From NCBI GenBank assembly GCA_903881215.1, contig CAIRSO010000657.1, forward strand, positions 1-36,615: DNA of 36,615 nucleotides. The letters are read 5' to 3'. Every line of letters starts with the position of its first letter. The stretch's first letter is position 1. The notes beneath the pieces were generated by a model. That model did no database searches, was not told the DNA's origin, and saw only the letters and a program-made list of their open reading frames with translations. This DNA is from an uncultured Bacteroidia bacterium. GTDB lineage: Bacteria > Bacteroidota > Bacteroidia > Bacteroidales > Prolixibacteraceae. Positions 20,476-36,515 of the stretch are shown piece by piece. The position numbers and the translations under genes are program-made.

Positions 20476-21030
20476 ATGAAAGAACAAGAACAAGTTATTA
20501 TCGAAAGCATCCTGGCGGGTCAGATTGACCAATACAGGATCCTGGTTGAAAAATACCAGAATCCTGTCTTTAGACTTATTATGAAAATTGTAGGCAATTA
20601 CGATGATGCAAAAGATTTGACCCAGGATGTGTTTGTAAAGGCATTTGAGTCCATGAAGCAATACAAGCCTCAATATAAATTTTTTAGCTGGATTTACAGA
20701 ATCGCTATAAATGAGGCTTTGTTTTTTGTGAAGCGCAAAAGAAATTTCCGGCAGATTGAAAGTGTTACTGATCCCGCGTGTCATCAGCCTGATCAAACTC
20801 CGGATTATGAGAGTCGTGAGAAACTACTGAATAATGCGATCAACGACCTTGCAGAAAGTTACAAATCGGTGATACTGCTTAAATACTATTCTGATCTTTC
20901 CTATACTGAGATGGCAGAAACACTGAGTCTCCCTGAAAAAACTGTCAAATCCAGATTGTTTGATGCCCGCAAAATGCTTCGGGAAAAATTGATAAACAAT
21001 GATTTTTTTACGGCAGTTCAGAACAATTGA
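20476..21030 (+). CDS. ECF RNA polymerase sigma factor
   Basis: The 184-residue protein has the two-domain layout of extracytoplasmic function sigma factors. Sigma region 2 covers about residues 10-85 (YQNPVFRLIMKIVGNYDDAK, DLTQDVFVKAFESMKQYKPQ, FFSWIYRIAINEALFFVKRK) and region 4 about 112-172 (NDLAESYKSVILLKYYSDLS, YTEMAETLSLPEKTVKSRLF). It recruits RNA polymerase to a specific promoter set. The membrane protein encoded 18 bp downstream is its likely anti-sigma factor. It is the first gene of a long plus-strand cluster of signalling and envelope genes. Its target promoters cannot be told from this window. Confidence 0.93.
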   Translation: MKEQEQVIIESILAGQIDQYRILVEKYQNPVFRLIMKIVGNYDDAKDLTQDVFVKAFESMKQYKPQYKFFSWIYRIAINEALFFVKRKRNFRQIESVTDPACHQPDQTPDYESREKLLNNAINDLAESYKSVILLKYYSDLSYTEMAETLSLPEKTVKSRLFDARKMLREKLINNDFFTAVQNN

Positions 21031-21048
21031 AATAAAATTATTATACCG

Positions 21049-21801
21049 ATGGAAGCGCTAGAACCCAAAGATGAGCTGATCATTCAAAATAAGATCGATG
21101 GTAATTTGTCGGTGGAGGAAGAAATTTGGTTTAAAGAACTGATCGAAAACTCCCCTCCGGCACGAAAATTTTACGAAGACCTGTTATCCCTTCAGCATGT
21201 TTTAGGAATGGATTCAAAAAGCATTCCCCCAGTTGATTTTGCTGAGGAAATTTTACCTGTTGTGAAAAGCAAACAAAAGCCACCAAAGCATGAGATGGAT
21301 ACAAGGCAATTTTGGGCCTTTTTATCCTCGGTAAACTTTATGGCCTATGCAGCTATCTTGATGGTCGGCCTATTTATTGGCAGCCTCATGACTTATCTTG
21401 GAAATTCAAACAATCAGCCAGCCGATGAACGTCAATTTTCTGGCACTATTTCAGCCCTGCCTGCGATGAATTTTGATTACAATAAGGATGGGACCCAAAT
21501 AAAAATACAGGAGCTTTTAACCCCAAAAGTAAAAATAGCCACAGTCTTTATTCACACTGAGGAACCTGTTCAATGCAGCATCTTGGGTAGCAATGCGAAG
21601 GTTATCGGGGAAAACATCCAGCTTCAGTTTTCTGATGGGAAATTTCTTCCGGTAGTGTCAGGCAACGATGCACTTCAATACTCTTGCATTGGCTGGATTG
21701 TCTTTCAAATCAAGGGAACGACTGACACCAATTCGCCCAATCGATTATCACTTGTATTTACTAAAAATGGCATGGTCATAAAACAATTAAACCTAAACTG
21801 A
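21049..21801 (+). CDS. Membrane anti-sigma factor, unassigned family
   Basis: The 250-residue product has a cytoplasmic N-terminus (about 1-90) with a small helical segment (DELIIQNKIDGNLSVEEEIW) of the kind that binds ECF sigma factors. It has one membrane span (about 96-116, ending GSLMTYLG) and a periplasmic domain of about 130 residues rich in beta strands. It lacks the His-x3-Cys-x2-Cys zinc motif. The assignment rests mostly on position, 18 bp after the sigma gene, and on topology. A PrsW-like protease gene lies 9.3 kb downstream in the same strand and could release the sigma factor by cutting this protein. Confidence 0.75.
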   Translation: MEALEPKDELIIQNKIDGNLSVEEEIWFKELIENSPPARKFYEDLLSLQHVLGMDSKSIPPVDFAEEILPVVKSKQKPPKHEMDTRQFWAFLSSVNFMAYAAILMVGLFIGSLMTYLGNSNNQPADERQFSGTISALPAMNFDYNKDGTQIKIQELLTPKVKIATVFIHTEEPVQCSILGSNAKVIGENIQLQFSDGKFLPVVSGNDALQYSCIGWIVFQIKGTTDTNSPNRLSLVFTKNGMVIKQLNLN

Positions 21802-21890
21802 GAACAGAAGAAATTATTTTCACATTTCTTCCAACTTTTTTCGCACTCAATTGTACTTATCATAAACGATTTTCACAAATAATTAAGGAA

Positions 21891-22985
21891 ATGAAAAAAT
21901 CAGGCAATTTATTTGTTGTTCTCGGAATCATCGCAGCGCTGGTCGTTGGTTTCTTAATCGGTATTTCTGTCGATTTTCCAAAGCTGAACAACCAAACCCT
22001 CTCTGGAACCATTGGAAAAGTAAAGAATTACAGAAATACCCAGGTTTCAGAGGTGGATATCCAACTTAAAAATGAGTTGGTAACCGATACTGCAAAGCTT
22101 AAAAATCTTCGCAGCTACTTCAATTTCTACTATGTGGGTGCCCTAAAAATGTCATTCGATGCAGATATGGCTGTCAAAGAGGCGGTTGCTGTTGGACCTT
22201 TCCAAAATGCAAACAAAACATTGATTGCCAGTATGGAGAGCTATGGAGAATTTCTTCTTTCAGCCAGAAGCGACTTGATGCTTGCCCTTTCGGCCTGCAG
22301 CTCAGTTGGTGATACCGATCCTATTCAGCTGAGAAACGCTCTCAACCAGGCAAAGAATGTGGTAGCCCAGATTAATTACCGCGACAGGGTTGTGCTTGAT
22401 TTCGTTAAAGCGCTTTCATCTTTTATCATGTTAGAAAAGGCAGGTCAATACAAGGGCCTTGAACAAGCGCATGATATTCTGGTTGCCAATGAGATTTTTA
22501 CTGCGGCAATTACAAAAAATAAAGTTGTGCTAAAGTATCTGGATAAAACTACTTTTTTTGCCAAATCCAGAGAGAATCATAAAGGCATTGATCAACAAAA
22601 ATTGAGCATGATGATACAGCAGGATATGGAAAACCTGGGGTTGGAGAACAGATTAATGGATACGGAGAAATTAAACTCCACTGATGCCGAAAAATTGGGT
22701 GGAAAGGATTCTGAACAGCTAGGATTTTATCAAGATGCATCAAAGCTGAGTTCGATTTCCGCAGATGCCGAGAGGTTGGGTGCTGTTTTAACTAACGACG
22801 TAGAGAAACTTGCCTGGGGCTGTGGCGATGCTGAAAAACTTGGACTTACAGATATAGAAAAACTGGCCTTCAGTTCACGTGTTAATGATTCTGAAATATT
22901 GGGAAGGATTTTGGATTCGGAGGCTTTAGGTTTTGATCCAAATGGTCAGGTGTTCAATCCTCCTCCTGGTCCCATAAAACCGTGA
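21891..22985 (+). CDS. Single-span membrane protein with 11 DxEKLG-type motifs (paralogue A)
   Basis: I do not recognise a named family. The 364 residues comprise a short basic N-terminus, one membrane span (about 8-26), a conserved junction FLIGISVDFPKLN, and a helical extracytoplasmic domain (about 38-245). The tail carries eleven motifs of the form D-x-E-K-L-G (starts at residues 245, 257, 265, 273, 282, 292, 303, 313, 321, 333 and 342), then a Pro-rich end (NPPPGPIKP). Residues 1-250 are clearly homologous to the next gene's product, and the first 70 also to that of 32197-33507. It lies 89 bp after the anti-sigma gene. Unlike the other two paralogues it is not followed directly by a protease gene. 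Confidence 0.85.
   Translation: MKKSGNLFVVLGIIAALVVGFLIGISVDFPKLNNQTLSGTIGKVKNYRNTQVSEVDIQLKNELVTDTAKLKNLRSYFNFYYVGALKMSFDADMAVKEAVAVGPFQNANKTLIASMESYGEFLLSARSDLMLALSACSSVGDTDPIQLRNALNQAKNVVAQINYRDRVVLDFVKALSSFIMLEKAGQYKGLEQAHDILVANEIFTAAITKNKVVLKYLDKTTFFAKSRENHKGIDQQKLSMMIQQDMENLGLENRLMDTEKLNSTDAEKLGGKDSEQLGFYQDASKLSSISADAERLGAVLTNDVEKLAWGCGDAEKLGLTDIEKLAFSSRVNDSEILGRILDSEALGFDPNGQVFNPPPGPIKP
22623..22931 (+). repeat. Protein repeat region: eleven D-x-E-K-L-G motifs
   Basis: The motifs start every 8-12 residues with irregular spacers. Codons differ between copies (for example GATGCCGAAAAATTGGG and GATGCTGAAAAACTTGG), so the peptide and not the DNA is conserved. Variants include DSEQLG, DASKLS, DAERLG and DSEILG. 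Confidence 0.9.
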
Positions 22986-23055: not shown

Positions 23056-24213
23056 ATGTCAAAACAAAAGTCTCTTTTAATTGGAATCGGAATCGTTGCT
23101 GCACTGGTCATCGGATTCTTGATTGGTATTTCTGTGGAGTCTCCTCGATTGAACAAACGATCCGTTTCAGGGACCATCGGAAAGGTGAACAATTACAGAA
23201 ACACTCAAGTTTCGGAAGCGGATATTCTGCTTAAGGATGAACTTCTAACCGACACAGCCAAAGTAAAAATGCTTCGCGGTTACTTCAACTTCTACTATGT
23301 CGGTGCGTTAAAAATGACAGCCGATGTTGAGTTGGCGGTGAAAGAAGCCACGTCCATTGAAGCTTTTCAAGTCAGTAACAAATCGCTGACCACAAGTCTG
23401 GAGAGCTATGGAAAGTTCCTTCTGTTGGCCAGGACTGATCTGCTAATGGCCCTCGCGGCTTGCAAGTCTGTCAAGGAAGCAAATCCGATCCTGCTGAGAA
23501 ACACGCTGAACCAGGCCAGGAATGTGGTGGCTCAGATCAATTACCGCGACCGGGTCGTACTTGATTTTGTGGATGCACTTTCGACTTTCATCAAATCAAA
23601 TGAACCGGTTCAGTTCCACGGACTGGAAAAAGCGCATGACCTGCTGATGGCCAATGAAGTTTACATTGCTATGATCACAAAAAACAAAGCGGTGTTGAAA
23701 TTTCTGGATAAAACAGTTTTGTTCAGCAAATCTCAGGAGAGCCCGAATACTTTCGATCAGCAGAAATTGAGCACAATGATCCAACAGGATGTGGAAAAGC
23801 TATCTCATATAGATATAACCTTTTCCGATGCCGAAAAATTGGCTCAATATAATGATGCTGAAAAATTGAATGTAGGCGACGCCGAAAAACTAGGTCATTA
23901 CACATTGGATTCTGAGAAACTGGGAATATATGGCGATGCGACAAAACTGGGTCAGGTTGCCGGGGATGCAGAGAAGTTAGGTATTGTTTACGTGGCAGAT
24001 AATGAGAAACTGAGATGTGATGTGGAGAAACTGGGGGTTACGGATATGGAGAAACTGGGTAGAATGATGATCAATGATGCTGAAGTACTAGGTGGCTATC
24101 AAATGTTTGCTTTTGATTCCGAAAAATTGGGTTTTGATGATTCGGAGAGTTTGGGCAGTCAGGCATCCGGCTTGACAAATGATGCAGAAAAAATGGGTGT
24201 TCGTAATAACTAA
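23056..24213 (+). CDS. Single-span membrane protein with 14 DxEKLG-type motifs (paralogue B)
   Basis: This 385-residue protein repeats the layout of its upstream neighbour: span at about 8-26 (LLIGIGIVAALVIGFLIG), junction ISVESPRLN, and a helical domain to about 245 with blocks shared almost word for word (YRNTQVSEADI, YFNFYYVGALKM, INYRDRVVLDFV). The tail has fourteen motifs starting at residues 245, 258, 267, 275, 285, 294, 304, 315, 322, 330, 341, 354, 362 and 376. Function is unknown. The tail is predicted to face the periplasm. The gene is 70 bp after paralogue A, from which it probably arose by duplication, and 43 bp before a secreted metalloprotease gene. Confidence 0.85.
   Translation: MSKQKSLLIGIGIVAALVIGFLIGISVESPRLNKRSVSGTIGKVNNYRNTQVSEADILLKDELLTDTAKVKMLRGYFNFYYVGALKMTADVELAVKEATSIEAFQVSNKSLTTSLESYGKFLLLARTDLLMALAACKSVKEANPILLRNTLNQARNVVAQINYRDRVVLDFVDALSTFIKSNEPVQFHGLEKAHDLLMANEVYIAMITKNKAVLKFLDKTVLFSKSQESPNTFDQQKLSTMIQQDVEKLSHIDITFSDAEKLAQYNDAEKLNVGDAEKLGHYTLDSEKLGIYGDATKLGQVAGDAEKLGIVYVADNEKLRCDVEKLGVTDMEKLGRMMINDAEVLGGYQMFAFDSEKLGFDDSESLGSQASGLTNDAEKMGVRNN
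23788..24198 (+). repeat. Protein repeat region: fourteen D-x-E-K-L-G motifs
   Basis: Motif starts are 7-14 residues apart. The first position is always Asp, the third Glu (Thr once), the fifth Leu (Met once). The fourth is usually Lys and the sixth usually Gly. Synonymous codons vary freely between copies, which points to old duplication held by selection on the peptide. Confidence 0.9.
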
Positions 24214-24256
24214 AAACTGCGAGACTAGAGGCGCGGAGCAATTTAAATTTGATACT

Positions 24257-27217
24257 ATGAGCATAAAAAAAATCGGAATAGCTTTCCTGGCGTCTTTTGT
24301 GATGCTTATTGGCTCACTGAAGGTTTCAGCCCAGCAGATCAACCACATGAAAGTGGATAATCTTGACTTAATCTATTTTGGGAAAGGCTATTCCTATTTG
24401 TTGCCCCACGTTTCTCGAACCTTCGACAATGCGATTAAATTTGACCGGAAATTCTGGGATTACAAAGACAAAACTACCTACGTCGTACTTAACGATTTCG
24501 AAGACATCGGCCATGCCGGAGCCATTGCCATGCCGTTGAGCCAGATTCAGATCGGCATTGAACCCTATGGCTTTGCCTTTAGTATCATTCCTTCTAATGA
24601 ACGGTTTCAATGGTTGTTTAACCACGAACTTACCCACATTGTGATGGCTGATAAAGCGAACAAGCAGGATGAATTTTTTCGCAAAATGATGATGGGAAAG
24701 ATCCGGAGGGACGAAGAAAAACCCCTGTCTGCCATGTGGAGCTATCTTACTGTCCCACGTTGGTATGCTCCCCGATGGTACCACGAAGGGATAGCTTGTT
24801 TTATGGAGACCTGGATGTCGGGCGGATTGGGTCGCGCCATGGGGACCTACGATGAAATGTATTTCCGGAGTATCGTTAATGAAAAGGAGCCCATTTATTC
24901 GCTCGTCGGACTCGAAACGGAAGGATCATCCATCGATTTTCAGGTTGGGGCAAATGCTTACCTGTATGGTTCCCGTTTTGTAACATACCTCGCAAGCCAA
25001 TATGGCGTTAATAAACTGAAGAGCTTTTACGCACGGACCGACAGTAGCAAGACTTATTATGCCAGCCAGTTTAAGCAAGTCTATGACCGTCCTATTCGGA
25101 GAGTATGGGACGAATGGACCAAATGGGAATATGAATTTCAACAGGAAAACATTGGCCTGATTAAAAAATACCCACTCACTCCATTCAAGGCCATCACCTC
25201 AAAACCGCTTGGGAACGTTTCAAACTATTGTTACAACGAGAAGACCCAGAAGATTTATGCGGCTATCAATTACCCGGGTGCTATTTCTCAAATTGCCGAA
25301 ATTGACAAGAACACAGGCAAAATCCGCAAGATTGCAACACTCGATTCACCTCTCTTGTATCTTTCAACCTACCTTGCCTACAATCCAGTTAACGAAAAGA
25401 TTTACATCAGCGAACAAAACGCCAAATTTCGCAACCTGGTTGAAATAGATGTTAAAACCGGGAAGAAGAAAATATTGATTGCGACAACCAGAACCGGTGA
25501 CCTGGTTTTTAATTCGGCCGACAAAAGTATCTGGGGTGTTCGCAACAACAATGGCTACTCCATCCTGGTGAAAATTCCTGAACCCTATACTGAGGTGCTC
25601 CAGATGTACACCGCCCCCTTTGGCAAAACCCTGTTCGACCTCGACATTTCGAAAAAGGGAGATCATTTGAGCGCCTCCCTGTCCGGCGTCAAAGGTGAAC
25701 AATCCCTTATTTTGTTCGATTTAAACAAAATGGAACAGGGCAATAACAATTTCAGTACAGTTCATTCACTTGAAGACAATACCCTGAACCAGTTTAAATT
25801 TTCGAACGATGACCAATATCTGATTGGAACATCTTATTTTACCGGAGTTTCCAATGTTTGGCGAATCAAGCTTTCAGACAAGAAATTTGAATTGCTGTCG
25901 AATACAGAAACCGGATTGTTTATGCCATTGCAACTCAACAACGATTCACTCTTTGTGTTAAAATTTTATCGTGATGGAATGGTTCCCGGTATAATTCCCG
26001 TTAAAGTACTGGAAGATGCCAGTGCCATAAATTACATGGGGAATCAGGTTCATCAAAAATATCCCGAAGTTGAAAAATGGGCACTACCTCCTGCGTCTGC
26101 CATCAAAACTGATTCCGCTTCCGTCTTGGAGGAAGCCTATCTTCCAAAGAAAAAGCTGAAGTTAATCAACGCTTATCCCGATTTAGCAGGGTTCAAAAAA
26201 ACGATCGCTGTCGGATACCGGCTCAACTGGCGCGACCCGCTGGGGGTTAATAATGTTGATCTTTTCATCGCAGGTTCGCCCTGGAGCAACTATGAGGACA
26301 AGCAAAAAATTCATGCGATGCTCAACTGGAGCTACTGGGACTGGCATTTGACAGCCTCATTCAATCCGACCAATTTTTACGACATTTTCGGACCTACGAG
26401 AAGGAGCCGTGCAGGCTATTCTCTTGGGATCAATTACAAACGGGTGCGTACGAATAAAACCCCACTTAATTCTTATTATGACCTTGGTATTTATACCTAT
26501 GGCAACCAGGAAGTTTTGCCATCCTACCAGAACATCACTTCACCAATAAGCGACTTTCAGCTAGTAACAGCTACTTATGGTGTGTCGAAGTTGAGGAGAA
26601 CACTGGGTGGCGTGGTTGATGAAAAGGGATTTTAATGGGACATAAATACCACTTCTTACCTTGCCAAAGGCGACATCTTCCCATCGATAGTTTCAAATCA
26701 GGATGTGGGATTTCTAATTCCCAACACAAGAAATACCAGTTTCTGGATCAGGAACAGTATTGGACAATCTTTTGGAGACAGAAGTTCGGGGCTTTCCAAT
26801 TTTTACTTCGGTGGATTTCGCAACAATTATGTTGATTGGCAATCCCCTGAGCAATACCGCTCTGCTATTGCATTTCCCGGGGCAGAGATTGACGAAATCC
26901 CAGCTTATAATTATTTGAAAACAATGGGTGAGCTCAATTTACGACCGATCAGGCTACGCAATGTTGGTGGAACGTGGATGTACCCCACTTATATTAAATC
27001 ATCTGTGTTTGCGACACATTTGATGACCAACTTTGACAAGGCTGCAGACTTGGCCCATATTTTTAATGTCGGCGCACAGATGGATATTCAGTTGGTGATG
27101 TTTTCTTACCTGAAAACTACCTGGTCTGTGGGTTACGCCAAAAAAATCGAGAATGGGCTGCCGGCGACAAATCAATGGATGTTATCTTTAAAATTACTAG
27201 GTGATTTGACCAAGTAG
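24257..27217 (+). pseudogene. Secreted gluzincin-type metalloprotease/outer-membrane protein, split by in-frame TAA
   Basis: From ATG 24257 there is a signal peptide (MSIKKIGIAFLASFVMLIGS, cleavage after VSAQ). A zinc-protease domain follows with HELTH (His123, Glu124, His127) and a downstream WYHEGIA Glu177 as third ligand, then a beta-propeller-like region (about 320-600) and a C-terminal region like an outer-membrane barrel. At 26633-26635 a TAA interrupts codon 793, but the same frame continues for 193 codons to 27217 and aligns without gaps to the protein at 33570-36515, which has Glu793 there. GAA to TAA is one base. The short product would be 792 residues and lack the end of the barrel. 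It could be a true mutation, a sequencing error or an active truncated protein. It follows repeat protein B by 43 bp. Confidence 0.85.
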
Positions 27218-27420
27218 TTTCTGAGGTCGCATTTGATTATAGGAATGGAAAGCCCCCACACCCCCTGAGATTATTGCTTTGTAATAAAAAGCACAGATTT
27301 ATTATATTAAACAAAACCAACTTTTATTTGTTTCAATCATATTTAAAAAGAAGCAATTTATTTACAAATTCCATGGGAATTATTCATAATTTTAAAACCC
27401 AGTTTTATATTTGCCTAAAA
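27218..27420 (+). other. Intergenic region before the binding-protein gene
   Basis: A weak hairpin (TGCTTT near 27275, AAAGCA near 27290) may end the upstream unit. TATATTTG at 27406-27413 matches the -7 consensus but lies only seven bases before the ATG and lacks a TTTG at the right distance, so it may be chance. A separate promoter for the signalling block is likely somewhere here. Confidence 0.35.
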
Positions 27421-28401
27421 ATGAGAAATTTGAATCATTACATTTTAAAATTTACTGCCACAGTACTTTTTTGTTTTATTTCGCTTTTCGCTGGAGCTCA
27501 ACTTCCGAAGCTCATTTTTTCACCACAATGGTTACCTCAGGCACAATTTGCAGGTTACTATATTGCCAAAGAGAGGGGTTTTTACAAGGAGGCGGGTATT
27601 GATGTTGAAATTGTTCACCCAACAACATCACTGCAAGTAACCGCCATGCTTAAAAGTGGGAAAGCTGATGTAATATCTCTTTTCTTAACAACGGCCATGA
27701 CTTGTAAAAACCAGGGGCTGGACATCGTAAATATTGGCCAAATATCCCAGCATTCTGCTATTCTGATCGTGACGAAGAAGTCAAGTGGCATCAGCGAACT
27801 GAAACAATTGAACGGGAAAAAAATTGGTGTTTGGAAAAGTGGGTTCGATGAATTGCCAAAAGCGCTAATCGCCGAAAAGAATCTAAAAGTTGAATGGGTT
27901 CCAATTTTATCAACGGTGAATTTGTTTATGCTGGACGGAATTGATGCGATGACCGTTATGTCTTACAATGAATACGATCAAATAATCAACAGCGGATTGG
28001 ATGAAAATGAGCTCAATGTTTTTCCTCTGGCTGATTTAGGGTATGATATTCCTGAAGACGGACTGTACTGCTTGCGATCAACCTATGAAAAGAAAAAATC
28101 GGAGCTGAACAAATTTCTTATTTCAACTTTAAAGGGATGGCAATATACAACTGAGAATAAGGATTCTGCACTTAACATTGTTCTGCAAACCATGCAGCTT
28201 GCCCATGTGCCAGCAAACAAGGCGCATCAGGATTGGATGTTAGGCAAAACATTGGAATTGATCAATCCGGGCCATAAGACGGTAAAGCCTGGAGAGCTGT
28301 TGGAAACTGACTTCATGAACGCTGCCACTATTATAAACAAGCGTGACAAGAGTAGTTCCACCTACTTGTTTACTGATTTCTACAAAAAACCGATCGAATA
28401 A
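27421..28401 (+). CDS. NMT1/THI5-like periplasmic binding protein (orphan)
   Basis: From ATG 27421 the product is 326 residues with a Sec signal peptide ending in FAGAQ. The family signature of NMT1/THI5-like solute-binding proteins is plain: PQWLPQAQFAGYYIAKERGF, then YKEAGIDVEIV, AMLKSGKADVISLFLTTAM and LNGKKIGVWKSGFDELPKAL. Relatives bind thiamine precursors, aromatic or sulfonate compounds for ABC uptake. No ABC permease or ATPase gene is present in the window, and the Cache-HAMP phosphatase gene starts 20 bp downstream. I therefore infer a sensor role, handing ligand or the bound state to the phosphatase. The longer frame upstream to 27274 has no leader and no ATG at its start. Confidence 0.85.
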   Translation: MRNLNHYILKFTATVLFCFISLFAGAQLPKLIFSPQWLPQAQFAGYYIAKERGFYKEAGIDVEIVHPTTSLQVTAMLKSGKADVISLFLTTAMTCKNQGLDIVNIGQISQHSAILIVTKKSSGISELKQLNGKKIGVWKSGFDELPKALIAEKNLKVEWVPILSTVNLFMLDGIDAMTVMSYNEYDQIINSGLDENELNVFPLADLGYDIPEDGLYCLRSTYEKKKSELNKFLISTLKGWQYTTENKDSALNIVLQTMQLAHVPANKAHQDWMLGKTLELINPGHKTVKPGELLETDFMNAATIINKRDKSSSTYLFTDFYKKPIE

Positions 28402-28421
28402 ATATTTTGAAAACAGAAAAA

Positions 28422-30365
28422 ATGAAAAATAGAACCTTGGCTGCTACTATCATACGCAGCGTATTACTTTTCTGCATCGGAATATTTGCAGTTATTTTCT
28501 CGATCTATTATTACTACACGCGGGAGACGATCAAAGAGACAACCCGCGAAAATGCAATCTTTTTGGCCAACAATACTGTCAATCAAATTGAACAAGTCTT
28601 AAATCCGATTGAAAAAATCCCTGACATTATTGCCCGAATGATGGAATCTTCTTTCCTAACGGAGGATTCACTCATTCCATTTTTACAGTCTATTTTAAAG
28701 AACAACAAAACAATTTTTGCCTCTGCAATTGCTTATGAACCGAGTTATTTTCCCGAAAAGGGACTATATTATGCTCCATATGTATTTCGTCAGGGTGATT
28801 CAATTAGCACGACCTCTCTGGGAGGTGAGAATTATGAGTATTTTTTTATGGATTGGTACCAAATTCCAAAGATGACCAATTCATCCTATTGGTCCGAACC
28901 CTATTTCGATGAAGGGGGTGCCAATATTTTGATGACGACTTATTCGACTCCTTTTTATACATACAAAAATGGCGTAAGAACTTTTTCCGGTGTAGTTACA
29001 ATCGATGTTTCACTGGAGTTTCTTAAGCAAATTATGTCAAAATTGAAGATTCTGGATACAGGCTATGCATTTCTCATTTCAAGAAATGGTGTAATCATTA
29101 CGCATCCGAACCAAAAATATGTGATGAATGAGAGTATTTTCTCCATTGCAAAGGCAAACAATCAACCCGGAATGCGCAGCGTGGGCCGGAATATGGTGCA
29201 GGGGAAAAGTAATTTTGCTTCTGCCGATTTTAAGAGCAAGTTTAAGTCTGGTAAACTATGGATTAACTATATATCACTTCCATCAAGTCATTGGTCCATC
29301 GGGGTAATTTATCCTGAAAGTGAGATGTTCGCCTCGTTGCGGAAAATTAACATCATCCTTATGCTTTTGGTGGTTTTCGGACTGTCATTATTGTCTGTTT
29401 TTATTACAAGGATCATTAACAACATTACCAAACCGCTTAAACTTTTGGCAAGTTCTGCCAGACTGATTGCTTCCGGTAATTTTAATGTTAAGTTGCCAGA
29501 GATCAAAACGCATGATGAAATGGAGGAGCTTTGCGATTCTTTTATCTATATGCAGAAAGAGTTGGCCGAGTATATCGTCACATTGAAAGACACGACTTCC
29601 GCCAAGGAAAAAATCGAAAGCGAATTACGCATTGCGCGGGAAATCCAGATGGCGATGATTCCTCATATTTTCCCGCCATTCCCGGATCTTCCTCAGATAG
29701 ATGTTTTTGCAGTATTAAAATCTGCCAAGGAAGTCGGGGGAGACTTATATGATTTCTTTGTCATAGACGGAGATAAATTCTGCTTTGCCATTGGTGATGT
29801 CTCCGGGAAAGGCGTTCCGGCCTCCTTATTTATGGCCGTTACCCGTACCCTGGTGCGTTCGATTTCCGATAAGGAGACATCTCCTTCAGTGATTGTGACC
29901 TCTCTTAATAAGTCATTGTCCGACAACAACGAGTCGAGTATGTTTGTAACCTTCTTCCTGGGTGTACTGGATTTGAAAACAGGATTGTTGAAATATTGCA
30001 ATGCCGGTCATAATCCACCGGTCATAATCCATGGCAACGGAGAGGTGACTATGTTTGAAAAGACAAAATATATCCCGGTAGGGCTGTTTGAAGATTTCGA
30101 TTACCAGGAGATATCCCTTCAGCTGGAAGATGGAGATAAAATTTTCCTATACACCGATGGCGTGAGTGAAGCAGAAAACGTTGACAATAAATTGTTCGGA
30201 GATGATACCCTGATGAACATCGTTTCTCAAAATGCAAAAGCCACACCACGCGATTTAATTCACAGAATGGAAGAGGAGATAGCAACGCATGTAAATGGAT
30301 TTACACAATCGGATGATATTACCATGATGACAATTGTTTACGATGGAAAACATAACAGAAGTTAA
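28422..30365 (+). CDS. Cache-HAMP-SpoIIE (RsbU-like) serine phosphatase
   Basis: From ATG 28422 the product is 647 residues. It has a membrane span at about 8-33, a periplasmic double Cache sensor domain (about 35-300, with PYFDEGGANILMTTYSTPFY and TGYAFLISRNGVIITHPNQK), a second span at about 306-327, HAMP (about 328-380), a short coiled linker ending ELRIAREIQMAMIP, and a PP2C/SpoIIE phosphatase domain. Metal-binding acids are present: Asp441 in VGGDLYDF, Asp459 in IGDVSGKG, and Asp631/Asp632 in QSDDIT. Such enzymes dephosphorylate STAS anti-anti-sigma proteins, and one is encoded two genes later. The next gene overlaps the end by 23 bp. A TTG start at 28407 is possible but the ATG is preferred. 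Confidence 0.93.
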   Translation: MKNRTLAATIIRSVLLFCIGIFAVIFSIYYYYTRETIKETTRENAIFLANNTVNQIEQVLNPIEKIPDIIARMMESSFLTEDSLIPFLQSILKNNKTIFASAIAYEPSYFPEKGLYYAPYVFRQGDSISTTSLGGENYEYFFMDWYQIPKMTNSSYWSEPYFDEGGANILMTTYSTPFYTYKNGVRTFSGVVTIDVSLEFLKQIMSKLKILDTGYAFLISRNGVIITHPNQKYVMNESIFSIAKANNQPGMRSVGRNMVQGKSNFASADFKSKFKSGKLWINYISLPSSHWSIGVIYPESEMFASLRKINIILMLLVVFGLSLLSVFITRIINNITKPLKLLASSARLIASGNFNVKLPEIKTHDEMEELCDSFIYMQKELAEYIVTLKDTTSAKEKIESELRIAREIQMAMIPHIFPPFPDLPQIDVFAVLKSAKEVGGDLYDFFVIDGDKFCFAIGDVSGKGVPASLFMAVTRTLVRSISDKETSPSVIVTSLNKSLSDNNESSMFVTFFLGVLDLKTGLLKYCNAGHNPPVIIHGNGEVTMFEKTKYIPVGLFEDFDYQEISLQLEDGDKIFLYTDGVSEAENVDNKLFGDDTLMNIVSQNAKATPRDLIHRMEEEIATHVNGFTQSDDITMMTIVYDGKHNRS

Positions 30366-30771
30366 AAAGTTATTGATTGACAATCAAATTGATGAGTTGA
30401 GTCGTGTCGCAACATGGCTGGAGGAACTCGGGGAAGAGTGGGAATTCCCTATGTCGTTGGTGCTCTCATTGAACCTGGTTTTGGAAGAGGCCTTAACCAA
30501 CACTATCTTATATGGATATGAGGATAAGTTACGGCATTCTATCGAGATTCTCTTCTCAAAATCCGGAGACTTGCTAAAGGTTTCCATTGTTGATGATGGA
30601 CTGGCTTACGATCCTACTACTAAACCCGACCCTGACATTACGTTATCAGTTGAGGACCGGCCTATCGGTGGATTGGGCGTATTCCTGATTAAGAAAATAA
30701 TGGATACTGTTGAATACCAACGAATCGAAAATAAAAACCATTTAACGCTCACAAAAAATATCAAACCATGA
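30343..30771 (+). CDS. RsbW-like anti-sigma serine kinase
   Basis: The 142-residue protein is a single GHKL ATPase domain of the RsbW/SpoIIAB kind. The N-box is LNLVLEEALTNTILYGYED with Glu49 and Asn53, the G1 motif VSIVDDGLAYDPT, and the G2 loop GGLGVFLIKKIMDTVEYQ. Such kinases phosphorylate a STAS protein and, when not bound to it, hold their target. The start overlaps the phosphatase gene by 23 bp and its stop overlaps the STAS gene (ATGA), so the three are translated together. No SigB-type sigma factor is present here, so its target may be another protein. ATG 30343 was preferred to a TTG three codons upstream. Confidence 0.92.
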   Translation: MENITEVKKLLIDNQIDELSRVATWLEELGEEWEFPMSLVLSLNLVLEEALTNTILYGYEDKLRHSIEILFSKSGDLLKVSIVDDGLAYDPTTKPDPDITLSVEDRPIGGLGVFLIKKIMDTVEYQRIENKNHLTLTKNIKP

Positions 30772-31097
30772 ATGTAGAAATTTTAGCAGCTGCCGATTAC
30801 TCTTTAGTTACCGTGGAAGGCCGTGTTGACACCACAAACGCAAACGAATTTGAAAAATCGATGTTAAGTGTTGTCGACGGAGGAGCCACGAAAATAGTGC
30901 TGGATTGCGCCGGACTTAATTACATCAGCAGCTCCGGCCTTAGGGTTTTCCTGATAGTTCAGAAAAAAATGATTGCCATAAAAGGCAAATTTGCCTTGTG
31001 TTGTCTGCAACCTGAGATCAAGGAAATTTTTGATATTTCAGGGTTTTCTTCCATCTTTTCAATTTATGCTGACAAAGAAGCCGCCATTAAGGGATAA
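30768..31097 (+). CDS. STAS-domain anti-anti-sigma factor (RsbV/SpoIIAA-like)
   Basis: The 109 residues make one STAS domain. The phosphorylation loop reads LNYISSSGLRVFL. By alignment with SpoIIAA, where Asp57-Ser58-Ser59-Gly60 carries phosphoserine at 58, Ser55 is the likely site; the preceding Asp is replaced by Ser54. It would be phosphorylated by the kinase encoded directly upstream and dephosphorylated by the SpoIIE enzyme. The start codon overlaps the kinase stop by ATGA. It is the third part of a partner switch controlled by a periplasmic signal. Confidence 0.93.
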   Translation: MNVEILAAADYSLVTVEGRVDTTNANEFEKSMLSVVDGGATKIVLDCAGLNYISSSGLRVFLIVQKKMIAIKGKFALCCLQPEIKEIFDISGFSSIFSIYADKEAAIKG

Positions 31098-31126: not shown

Positions 31127-32152
31127 ATGTTCCGGACCTCTTTAAACCAATCTGGTATGAATATTGTTTTCAATTTTTTTCCCGTATTGCTCTTTCTGGC
31201 ATTTCTCTTCTTGCTGGACAGCTTTCAATTAGTTCGCGTTAAGACGCTAATTATGTGTTTGTTGTGGGGAGCAGTATGTGCGGTATTTGCCTATTTTCTA
31301 AATACCCTGGTAGCTGAAAAATGGGCAGTGGAATTTTCTACTCTTTCCAGATATGTCGCACCTGTGATCGAAGAAATGATGAAGGCACTTTTCATCTTTT
31401 TCCTGATCTCGAAGAAGAAGATTGGTTTTATGATCGATGCTGCTATTTACGGATTTGCCGTTGGAGCAGGATTCTCCCTGACAGAGAACATTTACATTTT
31501 GTTCAATTCACCTCCTGAGTATAACCTACTTACCTGGATCATCAGAGGATTTGGCACCGCCATCATGCATGGTGGATGCACTTCATTCTTTGCTGTCCTT
31601 TTTGTAGGAGGCATCAACAGGTCAGGGAACAGATTATTTGCAGCCTTTCCGGGTCTCTTGCTGGCGATCCTGTTTCATTCCGGATTCAACCATTTCCCCT
31701 TGAACCCAGTTTTACAAACTTTACTGATCGTAGCCTTGCTTCCTGTTGCGTTCGTGCTTGTTTTCAGATTAAGCAACAAGAAACTGCAGCAGTGGCTGGA
31801 AATTGAATTTAACAGCGAGGTGAAAATTCTGAACATGATCCGCAAGGGCGATTTCGGTTCAACCAAAGCAGGAGAATATTTAAAATCTCTCAAAGAGCAG
31901 TTTAAACCTGAAACAATAGTCGACATGTATTGTTATATTGGTTTGTACCTCGAGCTTTCAATTATTGTTAAGCGGAATCTGATGCTGAAAGAAAATGACT
32001 TTGAGATAATTGTTGAAGACGATGTCCAACCCAAACTGAATGAGCTGGTTCAATTGCGGAAGCAAATCGGAAAAGTTGGAGAATTGGCTCTGTCACCTTT
32101 GATCCGGATGGATTATAGAAATCTTTGGAAGCTTAATCAGCTGCAAGGATAA
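31127..32152 (+). CDS. prsW: PrsW-family intramembrane metalloprotease
   Basis: The 341-residue protein has about eight membrane spans up to residue 215 and a soluble tail (about 216-341). The PrsW motifs are present: APVIEEMMKALF (Glu82, Glu83, Lys86), GFAVGAGFSLTENI (Glu120, Asn121), His148 in IMHGG, and His184 and His189 in LFHSGFNHF. PrsW of Bacillus subtilis makes the first cut in the anti-sigma factor RsiW and so frees SigW. Here a membrane anti-sigma factor is encoded in the same cluster, which makes it a candidate substrate. The cytoplasmic tail is an addition to the core family. ATG 31157 is an alternative start. It follows the STAS gene by 29 bp. Confidence 0.88.
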   Translation: MFRTSLNQSGMNIVFNFFPVLLFLAFLFLLDSFQLVRVKTLIMCLLWGAVCAVFAYFLNTLVAEKWAVEFSTLSRYVAPVIEEMMKALFIFFLISKKKIGFMIDAAIYGFAVGAGFSLTENIYILFNSPPEYNLLTWIIRGFGTAIMHGGCTSFFAVLFVGGINRSGNRLFAAFPGLLLAILFHSGFNHFPLNPVLQTLLIVALLPVAFVLVFRLSNKKLQQWLEIEFNSEVKILNMIRKGDFGSTKAGEYLKSLKEQFKPETIVDMYCYIGLYLELSIIVKRNLMLKENDFEIIVEDDVQPKLNELVQLRKQIGKVGELALSPLIRMDYRNLWKLNQLQG

Positions 32153-32196: not shown

Positions 32197-33507
32197 ATGA
32201 AAACTAAAGTCAAAATGATCTTCGCGATAAGCTTGATCGCTGCTTTATTTATTGGTTTTATGATCGGAGTCAGTGTTGATTATCCGAACCCAAATAAGTC
32301 TGACCTTGCTGGCACCTTTGGAAAAGCGGAAAAATTCAGAAAAGTACAAATGACCGAGAAAGACCTTCAGCTTCGGAGCGATTTGGTGAAAGATACTGCC
32401 AGGTTGAGAAGCATGATACAAGGACTGGTCTATTTTTCACTGTTCACGGAAGAGCTCCGAACGAATCTTGATATGTGTACCATCTCATTCTCGGCCCAGG
32501 GAATGGGTACACAAGCCGACGAATCCGGGAAAATCAAAGTCATGAAGGATTATTCCGATTTTATCCGAAACAACAATGCATCGCTGAATGCCACCATTGT
32601 CATGCTCACCGCTTTTTACGGAAAAGATGGGGGTGATGCCTCACAGGATGTCGAAAGGACCCTCCAGGATTTCGGGAACTATGTGAGTAACATGAGCAAA
32701 AAGGATTCGATTCTAAGTCAGGTGCTTGTCAACATGGATGAATACCTGCTTAACTCCAAAACACTGCAGTCCAGGGAAGCTGAATTCAGGCAACTGAAGT
32801 CGATTCGAGATCAACTGTTGGTCAAAGGGATTCAATTTGGCGGATTACTCGGCAACAAGGGAGTAGTCGTCAGCAGGATGAAATATGCCATGGATACGCA
32901 ATTGAAGTATACTGGTGTCAGTTCTATGGATTTTCATCCTTTATTGGCAAATCCTGCAACAGCGGGTAATGCTAGCCTTTTTTCAGGCATGAGTGCACAA
33001 AACCAGATGAACGTTCAGCTGGAGGGTTTTTATAATGCCCAGGTTGCTTCCCAGGTTGATTCAAAAGTATCGGCAGTTGTATACGATAGCAAGGCGCTGG
33101 AATTTAAGGTGGTGGATTTGCAAGCGTTAACTGCTCTCAAGCAATCGCTTGACGGGGCATTAAAAGCTGGCGGACTCGAAGGCGCATTAAAATCTGGCGG
33201 ACTCGAAGGTTCATTAAAATCCGGTGCAATGGATGCTGCCTTGTTACAGTCGAAAGGATTGAACTCGATGGCCGCTCAGCCCATTTTAATGATTAAAGCG
33301 GGCGGAGATTTGCAGGTTATTTTGAGTCAATTCTCAGTAGGTCAAATGGTATCGTCCAGTTTACTGTCAGGTTTAAGTATGGAATCATCCCTAAAGCTCT
33401 GCCAAATTAGCTCAATGAACGCAATGAACGCACAAGCATTGGAAGCGATGAACCCTTTGAATATGTTTCATTCTGCACTCGAATCCTCATTATTGCAAGC
33501 TCATTAG
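32197..33507 (+). CDS. Single-span membrane protein with Ala/Gly/Leu repeat tail (paralogue C)
   Basis: This 436-residue protein shares the N-terminal layout of the proteins at 21891 and 23056: basic start, one span (about 7-25), GVSVDYPNPN, then GTFGKAEKFRKVQMTEKDLQ and LVKDTARLR, which align with GTIGKVKNYRNTQVSE and LVTDTAKLK of paralogue A. After residue 80 it diverges. The tail (about 285-436) lacks D-x-E-K-L-G motifs. It has instead three units of the type G-A-L-K-S-G-G-L-E (residues 320-346) and a Met-, Ser-, Leu- and Gln-rich end. Function unknown. The gene lies 44 bp after the PrsW-like gene and 62 bp before the second metalloprotease, repeating the order seen for B and its protease. 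Confidence 0.82.
   Translation: MKTKVKMIFAISLIAALFIGFMIGVSVDYPNPNKSDLAGTFGKAEKFRKVQMTEKDLQLRSDLVKDTARLRSMIQGLVYFSLFTEELRTNLDMCTISFSAQGMGTQADESGKIKVMKDYSDFIRNNNASLNATIVMLTAFYGKDGGDASQDVERTLQDFGNYVSNMSKKDSILSQVLVNMDEYLLNSKTLQSREAEFRQLKSIRDQLLVKGIQFGGLLGNKGVVVSRMKYAMDTQLKYTGVSSMDFHPLLANPATAGNASLFSGMSAQNQMNVQLEGFYNAQVASQVDSKVSAVVYDSKALEFKVVDLQALTALKQSLDGALKAGGLEGALKSGGLEGSLKSGAMDAALLQSKGLNSMAAQPILMIKAGGDLQVILSQFSVGQMVSSSLLSGLSMESSLKLCQISSMNAMNAQALEAMNPLNMFHSALESSLLQAH
33154..33234 (+). repeat. Three 27-bp in-frame direct repeats
   Basis: Units 33154-33180, 33181-33207 and 33208-33234 encode G-A-L-K-A-G-G-L-E, G-A-L-K-S-G-G-L-E and G-S-L-K-S-G-A-M-D. The first two are close at the DNA level, so this is a recent expansion, unlike the old motifs of paralogues A and B. 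Confidence 0.92.
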
Positions 33508-33569
33508 AAGTTAGTCCGGAATAGTTATAGCCAGTTGTTTGATTCTCATAGCATCTTCAAAAATTTATC

Positions 33570-36515
33570 ATGCGTTTATTAGCAAACTCATTGGTTTCAT
33601 TGTTGTTCTTACTCCCTGTTTCTCTTTCTGCGCAAAAGAAAATTTTGCTGCAAAAGTATGAAACACCGAACATGAAACTGGTTTTCCTGGATAAAAACAC
33701 CTCATACCTAGTCCCTCATACGGCCAGATCGTTCGAGAATGCGCTGGTATTTCACAAGAATTTCTGGAATTATACCCCTTCAGGAGGAACCAATATTCTC
33801 TTTAATGACTTCTCTGATGTTGGCAATGGCGGAACCATGGTTCTTCCCTGGAACTTTCTGAATATAGGTGTATCTCCTTTCGATTATACTTATTCGGTGG
33901 TTCCTTCCAATGAAAGGATGCAGTGGCTGATGAGCCACGAGCTGGCACATCAGGTGATGTGCGACCAGGCTTCAAAAACAGACAATGTATATCGCTCCAT
34001 CCTGGGAGGCAAAGTGATGGCGGATAACCGCGATCCCATTTCGATGGCATACAGCTACTTCACCACACCACGATGGTATTCCCCAAGATGGTATCATGAA
34101 GGAATAGCTGTTTTCATGGAAACCTGGATGTCCGGGGGTGTTGGTCGGGTTATGGGCGGATACGATGAAATGGTTTTTCGAACCATGGTTCGCAACAATT
34201 CCTTTTTTTACAATGTTATTGGTCTCGAGACAGAAGGGACAACGATCGACTTTCAGGTTGGTGTAAATTCGTACCTCTACGGCACCAGGTTTGTGAGTTA
34301 CCTGGCTAATACCTACGGAATCCCCAAGCTGAAGGAGTTTTACGCGAGAACTGATTCCAGCAAGCGCTTTTATGCCAACCAGTTTGAGAACGTGTATAAC
34401 GTTCCTATTCAAAAGGAATGGGACAAATGGATTGCCTGGGAAAAGGAGTTTCAACTGAATAATCTGAAGGAGGTTAATAAAAACCCTATTACTGGATACC
34501 GGAAAATTACCCCAAAACCATTGGGTTCGGTCTCGCGTCAATTTTACGACCCGGCATCTAACAAACTTTTACTGGCGGTCAACTATCCTGGTAAGCTGGC
34601 GCACATTACTGCCATTGATGTGAACTCCGGCAAGATGTCGCCCATAGCCAGGGTTGAAAGTCCCAGCTTGTTCATGGTAACAAGTTTGGCATATGACGAT
34701 TCAGCCAAAACAATTTTTGCCTCTACCCAGAACAAAGACTGGCGCGGACTCGAATCGATTGATGTGAACAGTGGAGAAGCCAAAAACCTTATCAAATACA
34801 CGCGATGCGGCAACCTGGTTTTTGATCAGAAAAGCAGTGCATTGTGGGGCATTCAGAGCATGAGCGGTCGATCGAACCTGATGCGGTTTTTGCCTCCGTA
34901 TGACAAATCCGAAACAATTTTGACGCTTCCTTTTGGTCAGGATCTCTCCGATCCTACGATTTCACCCGATGGAAAGCTTCTTGCAGTGACACTTTCAGAT
35001 GTGGCAGGAGTTCAAAAATTGGTCGTCTACAAAATGTCTGATCTGGATGCTGGGAAAACCGATTATCAGATCATCTATGAATTTGAAGACAATCCGGCTG
35101 CCAATTTTGTCTTTTCGCCGGATGGTAAATACCTTTATGGGACCTCTTATTATACGGGTGTTTCCAATGTTTTCCGCATATCGCTGGAAACACACAAGGC
35201 GCAGATTCTCACCAATGCCGAGACCGGATTCTTCAGGCCGCTGCCAATTTCTGCCGATTCGATGGTCGTCTTTAGTTATACGCCTGAAGGAATGATTGCC
35301 GGCATGATGAAAATTGATACGGTAGCAAACGTGAATCCAATCGCCTATTTGGGTCAGGAAATATATAACAAGAATCCAACTATCGAAAGCTTGACTTTGC
35401 CTTCGCCGTTAAAAATTAGTCTGGATTCATTGCATGTTGTGGAAAAACCTTACAATCCTGTGAAAGAACTCAAGTTGGCAGGTGCTTATCCCATTGTTCA
35501 GGGGTACAAAAATTATGTTGCAGCAGGCTATCGGCTCAATTTTATGGATCCTATGGGACTGAATTCATTGGTTTTGAAATTCTCATTTACCGCCACTGAC
35601 AGTTTGCCTAAAAAGCAGATTCCACACCTTTCGGCCGAATACAACTATTGGAACTGGACTTTCAACGCAAATTACAACTACGCTGATTTCTACGATCTTT
35701 TTGGACCGACAAAATTTAGCAGGGCAGGTTACTCTTTTTCAGCCAAATACTACAAACTGATCAACCGGCTCTCACCGAATAAAACTGATTTCTATGCCAA
35801 GGTTAGCGTTTATGGTGATTTGGAAACCCTTCCAGGTTATCAAAATATTGCTTCCGATTACAAAAATCTTTTTGTAGGAACCATCAATTACCACAAGAGT
35901 TACCTGCGCAAATCCCTTGGGGCGATCGAACCTGAACAGGGTTATGAGTGGAATGTATATGGCTACAGCACTTTGGCCAAACAAAGTTTCTATCCGCAAT
36001 TAATCAACAATTATGATTTTGGATTTTTATTGCCGTTGAGGAACACTTCTCTATGGTTTAGATCATCCCTTGGACAATCATTCGGCGATTCAGACAAATC
36101 AAACTCCTATTTCTACTTTGGAGGGTTTGGAAACAATTACCTGGACTATCGTTCAGCTCAGCAATACCGTGAGATGTCTAGTTTTCCGGGCATGAATATC
36201 GACGAAGTATCTGCCATCAATTATGGCAAAATGTCTATGGAAGTAAATCTAAAACCACTTCGCTTCAAGAAATTTGGGTTCAAAGGTCTGTACACCACTT
36301 ATGCCAGGATGTCGCTCTTTGGCATGGGACTGTTCACCAATCTTGGTTATGATCAACCACAGCTTAAACAGCTCAATTATTATTCTACTGGAGCTCAGTT
36401 GGATGTCGAGATTGTTCTCTTTTCTTTGCTCAAGTCAACACTCTCTTTAGGCGTTGCGCGAGCCTATGGACCAGAGTCATCTAAAAATCAATTTATGGTT
36501 TCTTTAAAACTATAA
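33570..36515 (+). CDS. Secreted gluzincin-type metalloprotease with propeller and outer-membrane barrel
   Basis: The 981 residues start with a signal peptide (MRLLANSLVSLLFLLPVSLS, AQ). The protease domain (about 25-310) has HELAH (His123, Glu124, His127) and, 49 residues on, WYHEGIAVFMETW with Glu177, the likely third zinc ligand of a gluzincin, as in peptidase MA-like proteins. Residues about 320-620 have blades such as ISPDGKLLAVTLSD and FSPDGKYLYGTSYYTG, a WD40/TolB-like propeller. From about 635 the alternating aromatic strands, the block SYFYFGGFGNNYLDYRSAQQ (about 848-867) and a last residue context VSLKL suggest an outer-membrane beta-barrel. It is the intact paralogue of 24257-27217 and follows repeat protein C. 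It probably acts at the cell surface or in the periplasm; substrate unknown. Confidence 0.85.
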   Translation: MRLLANSLVSLLFLLPVSLSAQKKILLQKYETPNMKLVFLDKNTSYLVPHTARSFENALVFHKNFWNYTPSGGTNILFNDFSDVGNGGTMVLPWNFLNIGVSPFDYTYSVVPSNERMQWLMSHELAHQVMCDQASKTDNVYRSILGGKVMADNRDPISMAYSYFTTPRWYSPRWYHEGIAVFMETWMSGGVGRVMGGYDEMVFRTMVRNNSFFYNVIGLETEGTTIDFQVGVNSYLYGTRFVSYLANTYGIPKLKEFYARTDSSKRFYANQFENVYNVPIQKEWDKWIAWEKEFQLNNLKEVNKNPITGYRKITPKPLGSVSRQFYDPASNKLLLAVNYPGKLAHITAIDVNSGKMSPIARVESPSLFMVTSLAYDDSAKTIFASTQNKDWRGLESIDVNSGEAKNLIKYTRCGNLVFDQKSSALWGIQSMSGRSNLMRFLPPYDKSETILTLPFGQDLSDPTISPDGKLLAVTLSDVAGVQKLVVYKMSDLDAGKTDYQIIYEFEDNPAANFVFSPDGKYLYGTSYYTGVSNVFRISLETHKAQILTNAETGFFRPLPISADSMVVFSYTPEGMIAGMMKIDTVANVNPIAYLGQEIYNKNPTIESLTLPSPLKISLDSLHVVEKPYNPVKELKLAGAYPIVQGYKNYVAAGYRLNFMDPMGLNSLVLKFSFTATDSLPKKQIPHLSAEYNYWNWTFNANYNYADFYDLFGPTKFSRAGYSFSAKYYKLINRLSPNKTDFYAKVSVYGDLETLPGYQNIASDYKNLFVGTINYHKSYLRKSLGAIEPEQGYEWNVYGYSTLAKQSFYPQLINNYDFGFLLPLRNTSLWFRSSLGQSFGDSDKSNSYFYFGGFGNNYLDYRSAQQYREMSSFPGMNIDEVSAINYGKMSMEVNLKPLRFKKFGFKGLYTTYARMSLFGMGLFTNLGYDQPQLKQLNYYSTGAQLDVEIVLFSLLKSTLSLGVARAYGPESSKNQFMVSLKL

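Follow-up and report, generated by a model that had tools for sequence, protein, structure and literature searches.

Among the described systems closest to the gene cluster considered here, RsbU-RsbW-RsbV and SpoIIE-SpoIIAB-SpoIIAA are partner switches, and the SigW-RsiW-PrsW-RasP pathway of Bacillus subtilis includes an anti-sigma factor, RsiW, that bears a zinc-finger anti-sigma domain. Passages of PMC3498285 and PMC10202637 describe Bacillus PrsW as the site-1 protease, which clips the anti-sigma factor in its extracytoplasmic part, and the EcfG-NepR-PhyR general stress response, as presented in parts of PMC8103513, applies a partner switch to an extracytoplasmic function (ECF) sigma factor via a response regulator that mimics a sigma factor. 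The locus analyzed in this work occupies positions 20476-36515 (plus strand, ~16 kb) of a 36,615-nucleotide contig (C657, complete and ending at 36615; hereafter, the window) from the metagenome-assembled genome (MAG) of an uncultured Bacteroidia bacterium, which comprises 881 contigs and is 85% complete. On balance, and with modest confidence, we read this locus as a PrsW-centered envelope-signaling system in which PrsW would cut both a membrane anti-sigma factor and a family of anchored repeat proteins at a shared juxtamembrane motif, with timing set by a secreted protease and the repeat tail, and with a second input through RsbW and STAS proteins.

The locus shares with SigW-RsiW-PrsW-RasP, as portrayed in the passages cited above, an ECF sigma factor, a membrane anti-sigma factor, and a PrsW-family protease, but here the PrsW gene is part of the cluster, and its product represents a subfamily that has an extra, conserved C-terminal part; the anti-sigma factor has no recognizable zinc-finger domain; and the locus additionally encodes a repeat protein, a secreted protease, and a partner switch. 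A SpoIIE phosphatase, a HATPase kinase, and a STAS protein with a conserved serine are held in common with RsbU/W/V and SpoIIE/AB/AA, whereas here these genes lie, in most loci selected by PrsW, directly 5' of the gene for an ECF sigma factor that has a membrane anti-sigma factor of its own. EcfG-NepR-PhyR likewise combines a partner switch with an ECF sigma factor, but the STAS, RsbW, and SpoIIE parts and PrsW fall outside that system as it appears in the relevant parts of PMC8103513 and, partly, in general background. The initial annotation of the window had proposed an undescribed system, and no published system of this composition was found in open-licence full texts, a corpus without most subscription journals and the main ECF reclassification, in which this ECF group may already be listed. 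The locus accordingly looks like an undescribed combination within ECF regulated proteolysis that includes two families with no curated name in Pfam or NCBIfam. Regulated proteolysis of an ECF anti-sigma factor and partner switching, two logics that have been studied separately, are thus joined in a single locus that crosses phyla.

Every component named in the initial annotation was recovered on the plus strand of the array by Pfam and NCBIfam scans and comparison of open reading frames (ORFs): an ECF sigma factor, an anti-sigma factor, repeat proteins A and B, protease A, and an NMT1-type binding protein, followed by a Cache-HAMP-SpoIIE phosphatase, an RsbW-like kinase, a STAS protein, PrsW, repeat protein C, and protease B. 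ORF starts were assigned mechanically, and several true starts are probably internal, on visual inspection of signal peptides and homologues. Neighboring genes overlap or are separated by 5-89 bp, except upstream of the NMT1 gene, where the gap is 56 bp for the mechanical ORF or 203 bp for the likelier start; this spacing would be compatible with one or two transcripts.

Conservation of the linkage was assessed in a collection of 84,980 species, in which a scan with the protease alignment produced 252 relatives, the best 80 of which were kept, and 94 distinct protease loci were counted (individual loci are denoted L with a number; L123 and L124, with class-2 protease relatives, were left out). 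A repeat protein or an anti-sigma/repeat fusion is encoded in the same direction as the protease and immediately 5' of it in 74 of the 84 loci with sufficient sequence, the ten exceptions being six loci with an intervening SpoIIE gene, one with swapped order (L108), one in which the profile missed a repeat protein that was seen by eye (L122), and two in which none was seen (L075 and L079). In the 46 protease loci with at least 6 kb of upstream and at least 2 kb of downstream sequence, PrsW lies nearby in 41 (40 if L070 is not counted), an ECF sigma factor in 29, an anti-sigma factor or fusion in 29, STAS in 21, RsbW in 17, and SpoIIE in 10, and an ECF or partner-switch gene is present in 36. 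All seven components are found on one strand in 17 protease loci, including the window (16 without L070). The one-strand array RsbW-STAS-ECF-anti-sigma-repeat-protease-PrsW recurs in protease-selected loci across phyla which, going by record names, some of which are doubtful and should be read with care, include Latescibacterota (L065, L110), KSB1 (L066), Eisenbacteria (Eiseniibacteriota; L067), Ignavibacteria (Ignavibacteriota; L068, L092), Krumholzibacteriota (L101), and Bacteroidota (L074, L085, L097, L098), in addition to L070 and L073. Two further records, titled Alphaproteobacteria and Thioalkalivibrio (L038, L102), contain proteases or clusters that resemble or group with those of Bacteroidales and are probably misbinned contigs.

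The distribution of the components across genomes shows the same association. Among 395 genomes of the window's phylum, the subfamily PrsW and a full-length protease (about 930 bits or more, or an adjacent fragment, the cut being set at the observed score gap) occur together in 14, only one of the two in 6 and 2, and neither in 373, giving a co-occurrence p of 2e-19; 14 genomes with proteases of 488-615 bits were left out of this count. The latter form a second protease class (14 of the 395 genomes, with some members of ~1200 aa), and two members that were inspected, L123 and L124, have no surrounding cluster. Two class-level samples of 195 and 197 genomes yielded 37 and 19 genomes, respectively, with the subfamily PrsW, one match being partial, and the three genome samples overlap. 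Adjacency by chance or through general operon drift would accommodate the patchy occurrence of the repeat protein, which is present in 12 of 100 genomes of the window's family (the window genome among them) and absent from the 7 other genomes of its genus; with identical order in several phyla and the above co-occurrence, we reject this explanation as having next to no chance of being correct. The initial annotation had contemplated that the components might be scattered in relatives and adjacent only here, and had called for a co-occurrence search: the linkage exceeds chance, and order and strand are conserved across phyla, with PrsW-selected loci of the window's phylum in agreement.

The latter loci matter because the protease-selected set is biased by its bait, whereas the PrsW-selected set, confined to the window's phylum, is free of that bias. 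It consists of 56 loci, 55 of which have a full PrsW (L196 is partial) and 39 of which have sufficient context, defined as 7 kb or more of upstream sequence or a visible ECF gene; among the 16 omitted, 12 run off the contig beyond genes for the protease, the repeat protein, or the anti-sigma factor, and 4 (L119, L120, L186, L190) have other genes within 1.7-4.3 kb upstream. An ECF gene lies 5' of PrsW in 37 of the 39 loci (37/43 when the four short contexts are counted), and these 37 loci contain STAS in 34, RsbW in 31, and the protease in 29 (L130 included), with the partner switch typically immediately before the ECF gene. Eight PrsW loci encode the ECF sigma factor, the anti-sigma factor, PrsW, and partner-switch genes without the repeat protein and the protease (one of them, L205, has two STAS-labeled genes and no RsbW), so the regulatory core is RsbW-STAS-ECF-anti-sigma-PrsW, and the repeat protein and protease are, in most loci, an insertion between the anti-sigma factor and PrsW.

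The window PrsW (31127..32152, plus strand; probable start ~31157) matches the Pfam family (PrsW, 1e-22; PF13367, 81 bits against a cut-off of 23.5) and has a conserved extra C-terminal part at about residues 225-331. It scores 33.4 bits against the NCBIfam PrsW equivalog NF033739, with a cut-off of 225, and on these scores is assigned to a divergent subfamily distinct from that equivalog. With profile A8, searched in the same 395 genomes, the subfamily scores 301-493 bits over nearly the full model and is separated from generic PrsW proteins, which score below 100 bits, mostly over the first 225 positions; the window's genome encodes one member. Residues E82, E83, E120, N121, H148, H184, and N188 are present in 78 of 78 sequences (a count that, like those given below for the kinase and STAS, includes near-copies), and the EE, E, and H residues are presumably the active site. 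A comparison of the family with PDB sequences gave a best E of only 0.62.

The ECF sigma factor is encoded at 20476..21030 (plus strand; Pfam Sigma70_r2 1.3e-14, r4_2 3.8e-13) and is followed by the membrane anti-sigma-like factor (21049..21801, plus strand), which, in a family alignment of 40 sequences, has one transmembrane span (residues 97-115). This protein scores below the cut-off for all Pfam families, matches NCBIfam 'antisigma' only at E 0.0033, and shows no zf-HC2 match at E 0.1; zf-HC2 has a single match elsewhere in the window's genome. The near-invariant columns of the alignment are M1, G107 and G111, both within the span, and G132, the glycine of a juxtamembrane S-G-T-I motif (residues 131-134; 21439..21450, plus strand) identified in the sequence listing and the alignment.

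This motif, common to the anti-sigma factors and the repeat proteins, together with natural fusions of the two, provides the strongest link within the system and was overlooked in the initial annotation. In a profile comparison, the two families share a stretch composed of the end of the span and, some residues on, G-T; homology of this segment was considered, but with 33 columns, E 1e-4, and a probability of only 57%, common descent is not claimed. The pattern G-[TSA]-[IMFL] occurs mostly 11-17 residues past the span in both families. Searched as G-[TSA]-[IMFLV] within a fixed interval, it is present in 39 of 43 anti-sigma factors and 77 of 77 repeat proteins, compared with 4 of 106 further ORFs with one span from these loci and 1 of 29 FecR-type proteins from related genomes (Fisher p against the ORFs, 1e-26 for anti-sigma factors and 2e-47 for repeat proteins; anti-sigma factors against FecR, 1e-14), p values that are rough given that the rows are related. 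These sets were de-replicated from 47 to 43 anti-sigma factors, from 98 to 81 repeat proteins, and from 119 to 106 control ORFs, the latter being mechanical ORFs of at least 120 aa with one span rather than curated genes; 4 of the 81 repeat proteins, with no detectable span (L025, L035, and L072, all three cut at contig ends, and L100), were left out, and L155, with no ORF, was dropped from the FecR control. The four anti-sigma factors that miss the pattern are those of the unrelated second pairs of L055, L056, and L058 and that of L101. In these three loci, a second ECF/anti-sigma pair, near positions 3900-5340, adjoins the cluster.

In the repeat proteins, the motif glycine is the sole invariant column among 76 sequences. 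An AlphaFold2 model of repeat protein B predicts a transmembrane helix (residues 3-26), a motif-bearing linker of low confidence (27-53), a confident helical bundle (54-218), and a tail of low confidence beyond it; an invariant glycine in a low-confidence linker is as expected for a linear recognition site. Fusions of the anti-sigma factor and the repeat protein, single chains of 373-619 residues encoded after the ECF gene, match both profiles in all 21 tested cases, with the anti-sigma profile N-terminal and the repeat profile starting near residue 100 (at 170 in L178, which has an N-terminal extension), and the junction holds the motif. Of those 21, 19 come from the PrsW-selected context set; the fusions of L121 and L125, recognized by eye, are outside the count.

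The question of which protein reads the motif is informed by the loci in which components are missing. Of the eight loci that lack both the repeat protein and the protease, seven retain the motif in their anti-sigma factor (SGTM in L114 and L179, SGSM in L116 and L188, TGTI in L194 and L195, and SGSI in L205; the exception, L118, reads QATM), and partner-switch-type loci (for example, L026, L080, L082, and L104), in which no ECF or anti-sigma gene is labeled, nevertheless have PrsW next to a motif-bearing repeat protein. Judged by this pattern of retention, the motif tracks PrsW, not the protease or a separate repeat protein, and because it persists in both sets of loci, the best inference is that PrsW is its reader.

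Alternatively, the motif could be a docking site through which the repeat protein binds the anti-sigma factor, or PrsW, as a co-inhibitor or shield, in the way RseB acts on RseA. Both proteins of the window family contain GxxxG within the span, and in L055-L059 (Bacteroidales), the repeat protein is lipoprotein-like, with an anchor that ends, by eye, in Cys after small residues and with the motif retained 11 residues past that Cys. Nonetheless, the motif remains in seven of the eight loci without a repeat protein and is present in fusions, where one protein bears it, and we regard docking as unlikely. Still less likely is the possibility that the motif is cut by the HEXXH protease, with PrsW acting afterwards: thermolysin-like proteases favor a bulky hydrophobic P1' residue, which the consensus G-T-[IMFL] would supply, and repeat protein and protease are mostly adjacent (74/84), but the anti-sigma motif is kept in seven of the eight protease-less loci, and the predicted barrel would place the protease in the outer membrane, with the motif ~15 residues off the inner membrane. 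A site-1 cut by signal peptidase, with some other function for PrsW, appears very unlikely. Small residues in the motif would suit such a cut, but signal peptidase cuts nearer to the span than the ~11-17 residues that separate it from the motif, and most loci retain PrsW. The precedent for this route is the cleavage of Bacillus RsiV and RsiP at site 1 by signal peptidase, described in passages of PMC10202637.

As the initial annotation proposed, the window encodes three related repeat proteins, the second 60% and the third 23% identical to the first. Repeat protein A (21891..22985, plus strand) has a transmembrane span, the SGTI motif, and a tail of DAEKLG type; repeat protein B, the one modeled, is encoded at 23056..24213 (plus strand); and repeat protein C (32197..33507, plus strand) has a transmembrane span, an AGTF motif at 32308-32319, and a variable tail. 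None of the three matches Pfam or NCBIfam. Foldseek gave no match to the fold at E 0.001 (best 0.029), and the best VIA hit (Z 10.2) was to designed helical bundles, in the range usual for common bundle arrangements. Significant periodicity was detected in the tails of 57 of 107 entries, near-copies included, most best periods being 6-27 residues, and different taxa have unrelated repeat units (DAEKLG-like in the window family; elsewhere DARFAELMK, ATLQEKA, SNLSNT, and others). Fast turnover of the tail next to an invariant glycine beside the anchor is a contrast that demands explanation. One explanation would be that each repeat protein is a multi-copy precursor of peptides that the protease/propeller/barrel protein matures and exports, with the sigma factor answering the peptide, and the periodic tails with unrelated units, along with up to four tandem paralogues (L015, L054), are of the kind that this predicts; yet the units are degenerate in the window, 50 of the 107 tails are not significantly periodic, and a tail fused to an anti-sigma factor suits a sensor better, so that we give the idea little credence. 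The tails of L122, L125, L128, and L129 are built of repeats 9-10 residues long (SPNFAQLMA and DARFAELMK, for example), and STI1-HOP_DP scored in all three tested (1e-13 in L129, 4e-8 in L128, and 5e-4, below the cut-off, in L125); these tails could be a chaperone-like helical repeat or a case of convergence. The Pfam matches in question, like those to MgtE_N and LED_rpt in the tails of L065 and L067, might be composition effects and were not taken as homology.

Both HEXXH proteases announced in the initial annotation are present, with 43% identity, but only protease B has an uninterrupted frame. Protease A, encoded at 24179..27217 (plus strand; probable start ~24257), spans ORFs 24179-26635 and 26705-27217, which form one frame that is intact on both sides of a single in-frame TAA at 26633-26635, in the C-terminal part; the protease may be defective, or the TAA may be an error of the MAG consensus. 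Protease B (33570..36515, plus strand; 981 aa) was modeled with AlphaFold2 (pLDDT 90, pTM 0.87), and the model, with domain limits set by eye, contains a signal peptide, a helical gluzincin part with HEXXH (residues ~28-305), a TolB-like propeller (~316-581), and long C-terminal beta strands (635-980). The gluzincin signature, H123, E124, and H127 of HEXXH plus the downstream E177, is invariant in 58 sequences, although Peptidase_MA_2 is below its cut-off in protease A (16.9 bits against 32.4) and is not listed for protease B; above cut-off, the proteases match only a PD40 repeat in Pfam and NCBIfam, and no PDB relatives were found by sequence at E 0.01. The best propeller match is TolB (3iax_A; Z 23.4, root-mean-square deviation 2.8 over 244 residues), with matches spanning residues ~307-586. 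A TolB-type beta-propeller is common to TolB/Pal, but here it lies between the gluzincin part and a C-terminal strand region that we read as a barrel, a region that was not searched alone and has no fold-search match of its own. Because of this reading of the model, the protease is probably an outer-membrane protein, and a weak Omp85_2 match in the last part of protease A (E 0.012) points the same way.

Under the PrsW-centered scheme, the single-span anti-sigma factor would hold the ECF sigma factor at rest, next to repeat proteins that are membrane- or lipid-anchored and would present a hypervariable extracytoplasmic tail after the same juxtamembrane motif. An envelope event, sensed via the repeat tail and the secreted protease/propeller protein, would free the juxtamembrane site, unless the secreted protease is itself an effector, and PrsW would then recognize and cut at or next to the motif in both the anti-sigma factor and the repeat protein. 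Cleavage might be completed by a general site-2 protease, as by RasP in Bacillus according to passages of PMC3498285 and PMC10202637; none is annotated in the window's array, and related loci were not searched for one. The second input would run in the cytoplasm from the NMT1 protein through the Cache-SpoIIE phosphatase to STAS and the RsbW-like kinase, to act on the sigma/anti-sigma pair or on PrsW. More tentatively, the locus could represent a new class of envelope signaling in which the repeat tail is an exchangeable sensor, a ruler or bait directed toward the outer-membrane protease/propeller protein, with PrsW processing firing the ECF sigma factor and the partner switch as gate, a two-input lock that would be older than the divergence of several phyla and would have been divided into two sub-systems in Bacteroidales afterwards. 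The shared motif is a concrete candidate for substrate recognition by the PrsW family that can be tested at one residue, and the natural fusions make the link of the repeat protein to sigma control directly testable.

Several observations weigh against cutting by PrsW at the motif as the basis of a conserved circuit. A search for a common ECF promoter (gapped 5-mer/4-mer pairs in 52 upstream regions) found nothing exceeding shuffled sequences. Variants replace the motif in the anti-sigma factors of L118 (QATM), L208 (GTA), and L101 (GATI), the repeat/protease pair of L122 is accompanied by a generic PrsW, with GSGIGG, outside the pattern, in the repeat protein, and the lipoprotein-like repeat proteins of L055-L059 would offer no membrane span for cutting. 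The ECF unit of the window has no adjoining PrsW of its own, and the absence of the repeat protein from all seven genus mates indicates that the system is dispensable. Finally, 6 of the 55 PrsW loci have neither an ECF gene nor a motif-bearing neighbor, two with more than 9 kb of upstream sequence (L115, L117) and four with 1.7-4.3 kb (L119, L120, L186, L190); for L120, an ECF gene and a fusion were found on another contig of the same genome (L121).

In Bacteroidales, the cluster occurs mostly in an ECF form or a partner-switch form, both of which are found in the window, where ECF-type and partner-switch-type units form one array around a single subfamily PrsW. Within the window's family, L015, L021, and L022 have PrsW-ECF-anti-sigma-repeat (1, 2, or 4 copies)-protease, and L026 and L027 have RsbW-STAS-PrsW-repeat-SpoIIE-protease. 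In a protease tree of 86 rows, obtained by a short search and rooted at the midpoint, a group of 35 rows, many of them from other phyla, contains 20 combined, 2 ECF-only, 2 partner-switch-only, and 11 untyped or cut loci, and a group of 51 rows, nearly all titled Bacteroidota, contains 3, 18, 11, and 19, respectively, with at least 11 changes of type among typed rows. With this midpoint root, one reading is that the combined type came first and was split later.

The partner-switch genes of the window encode a dCache-HAMP-SpoIIE (PP2C) phosphatase (28407..30365, plus strand; Pfam SpoIIE 2e-53), an RsbW-like kinase (30334..30771, plus strand; HATPase_c_2 2e-24), and a STAS antagonist (30768..31097, plus strand; STAS 4e-21; Ser55 codon at 30930-30932). 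Kinase residues E52, N56, D87, G113, and G115 are kept in 34 or 35 of 35 sequences and the STAS Ser55 in 48 of 48, so that a kinase and a serine-bearing STAS protein with key residues, plus a PP2C phosphatase by Pfam, match the make-up of a partner switch. In L026, L032, L033, L050, and L051, extra long proteins (751-790 aa) with a STAS-like match are encoded beside the partner-switch genes. The NMT1-type periplasmic binding protein (27274..28401, plus strand; probable start ~27421; Pfam NMT1 3e-40) is encoded immediately 5' of SpoIIE in all nine loci where NMT1 was labeled, and no ABC permease or transporter is among the Pfam-scanned proteins of the window array (related loci were not searched), which together suggests that the NMT1 protein presents a ligand to the Cache sensor.

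Elsewhere in the window, positions 12822-18025 encode an S24/LexA-like repressor, a Y-family polymerase, and a DnaE-type polymerase that resemble an SOS mutagenesis cassette, with a G+C content of up to 0.55 against ~0.38-0.45 in the rest of the window, and positions 18196-18983 (minus strand) hold a probable toxin-antitoxin pair, in which the gene for a GNAT-like acetyltransferase follows that for a TacA1-type antitoxin.

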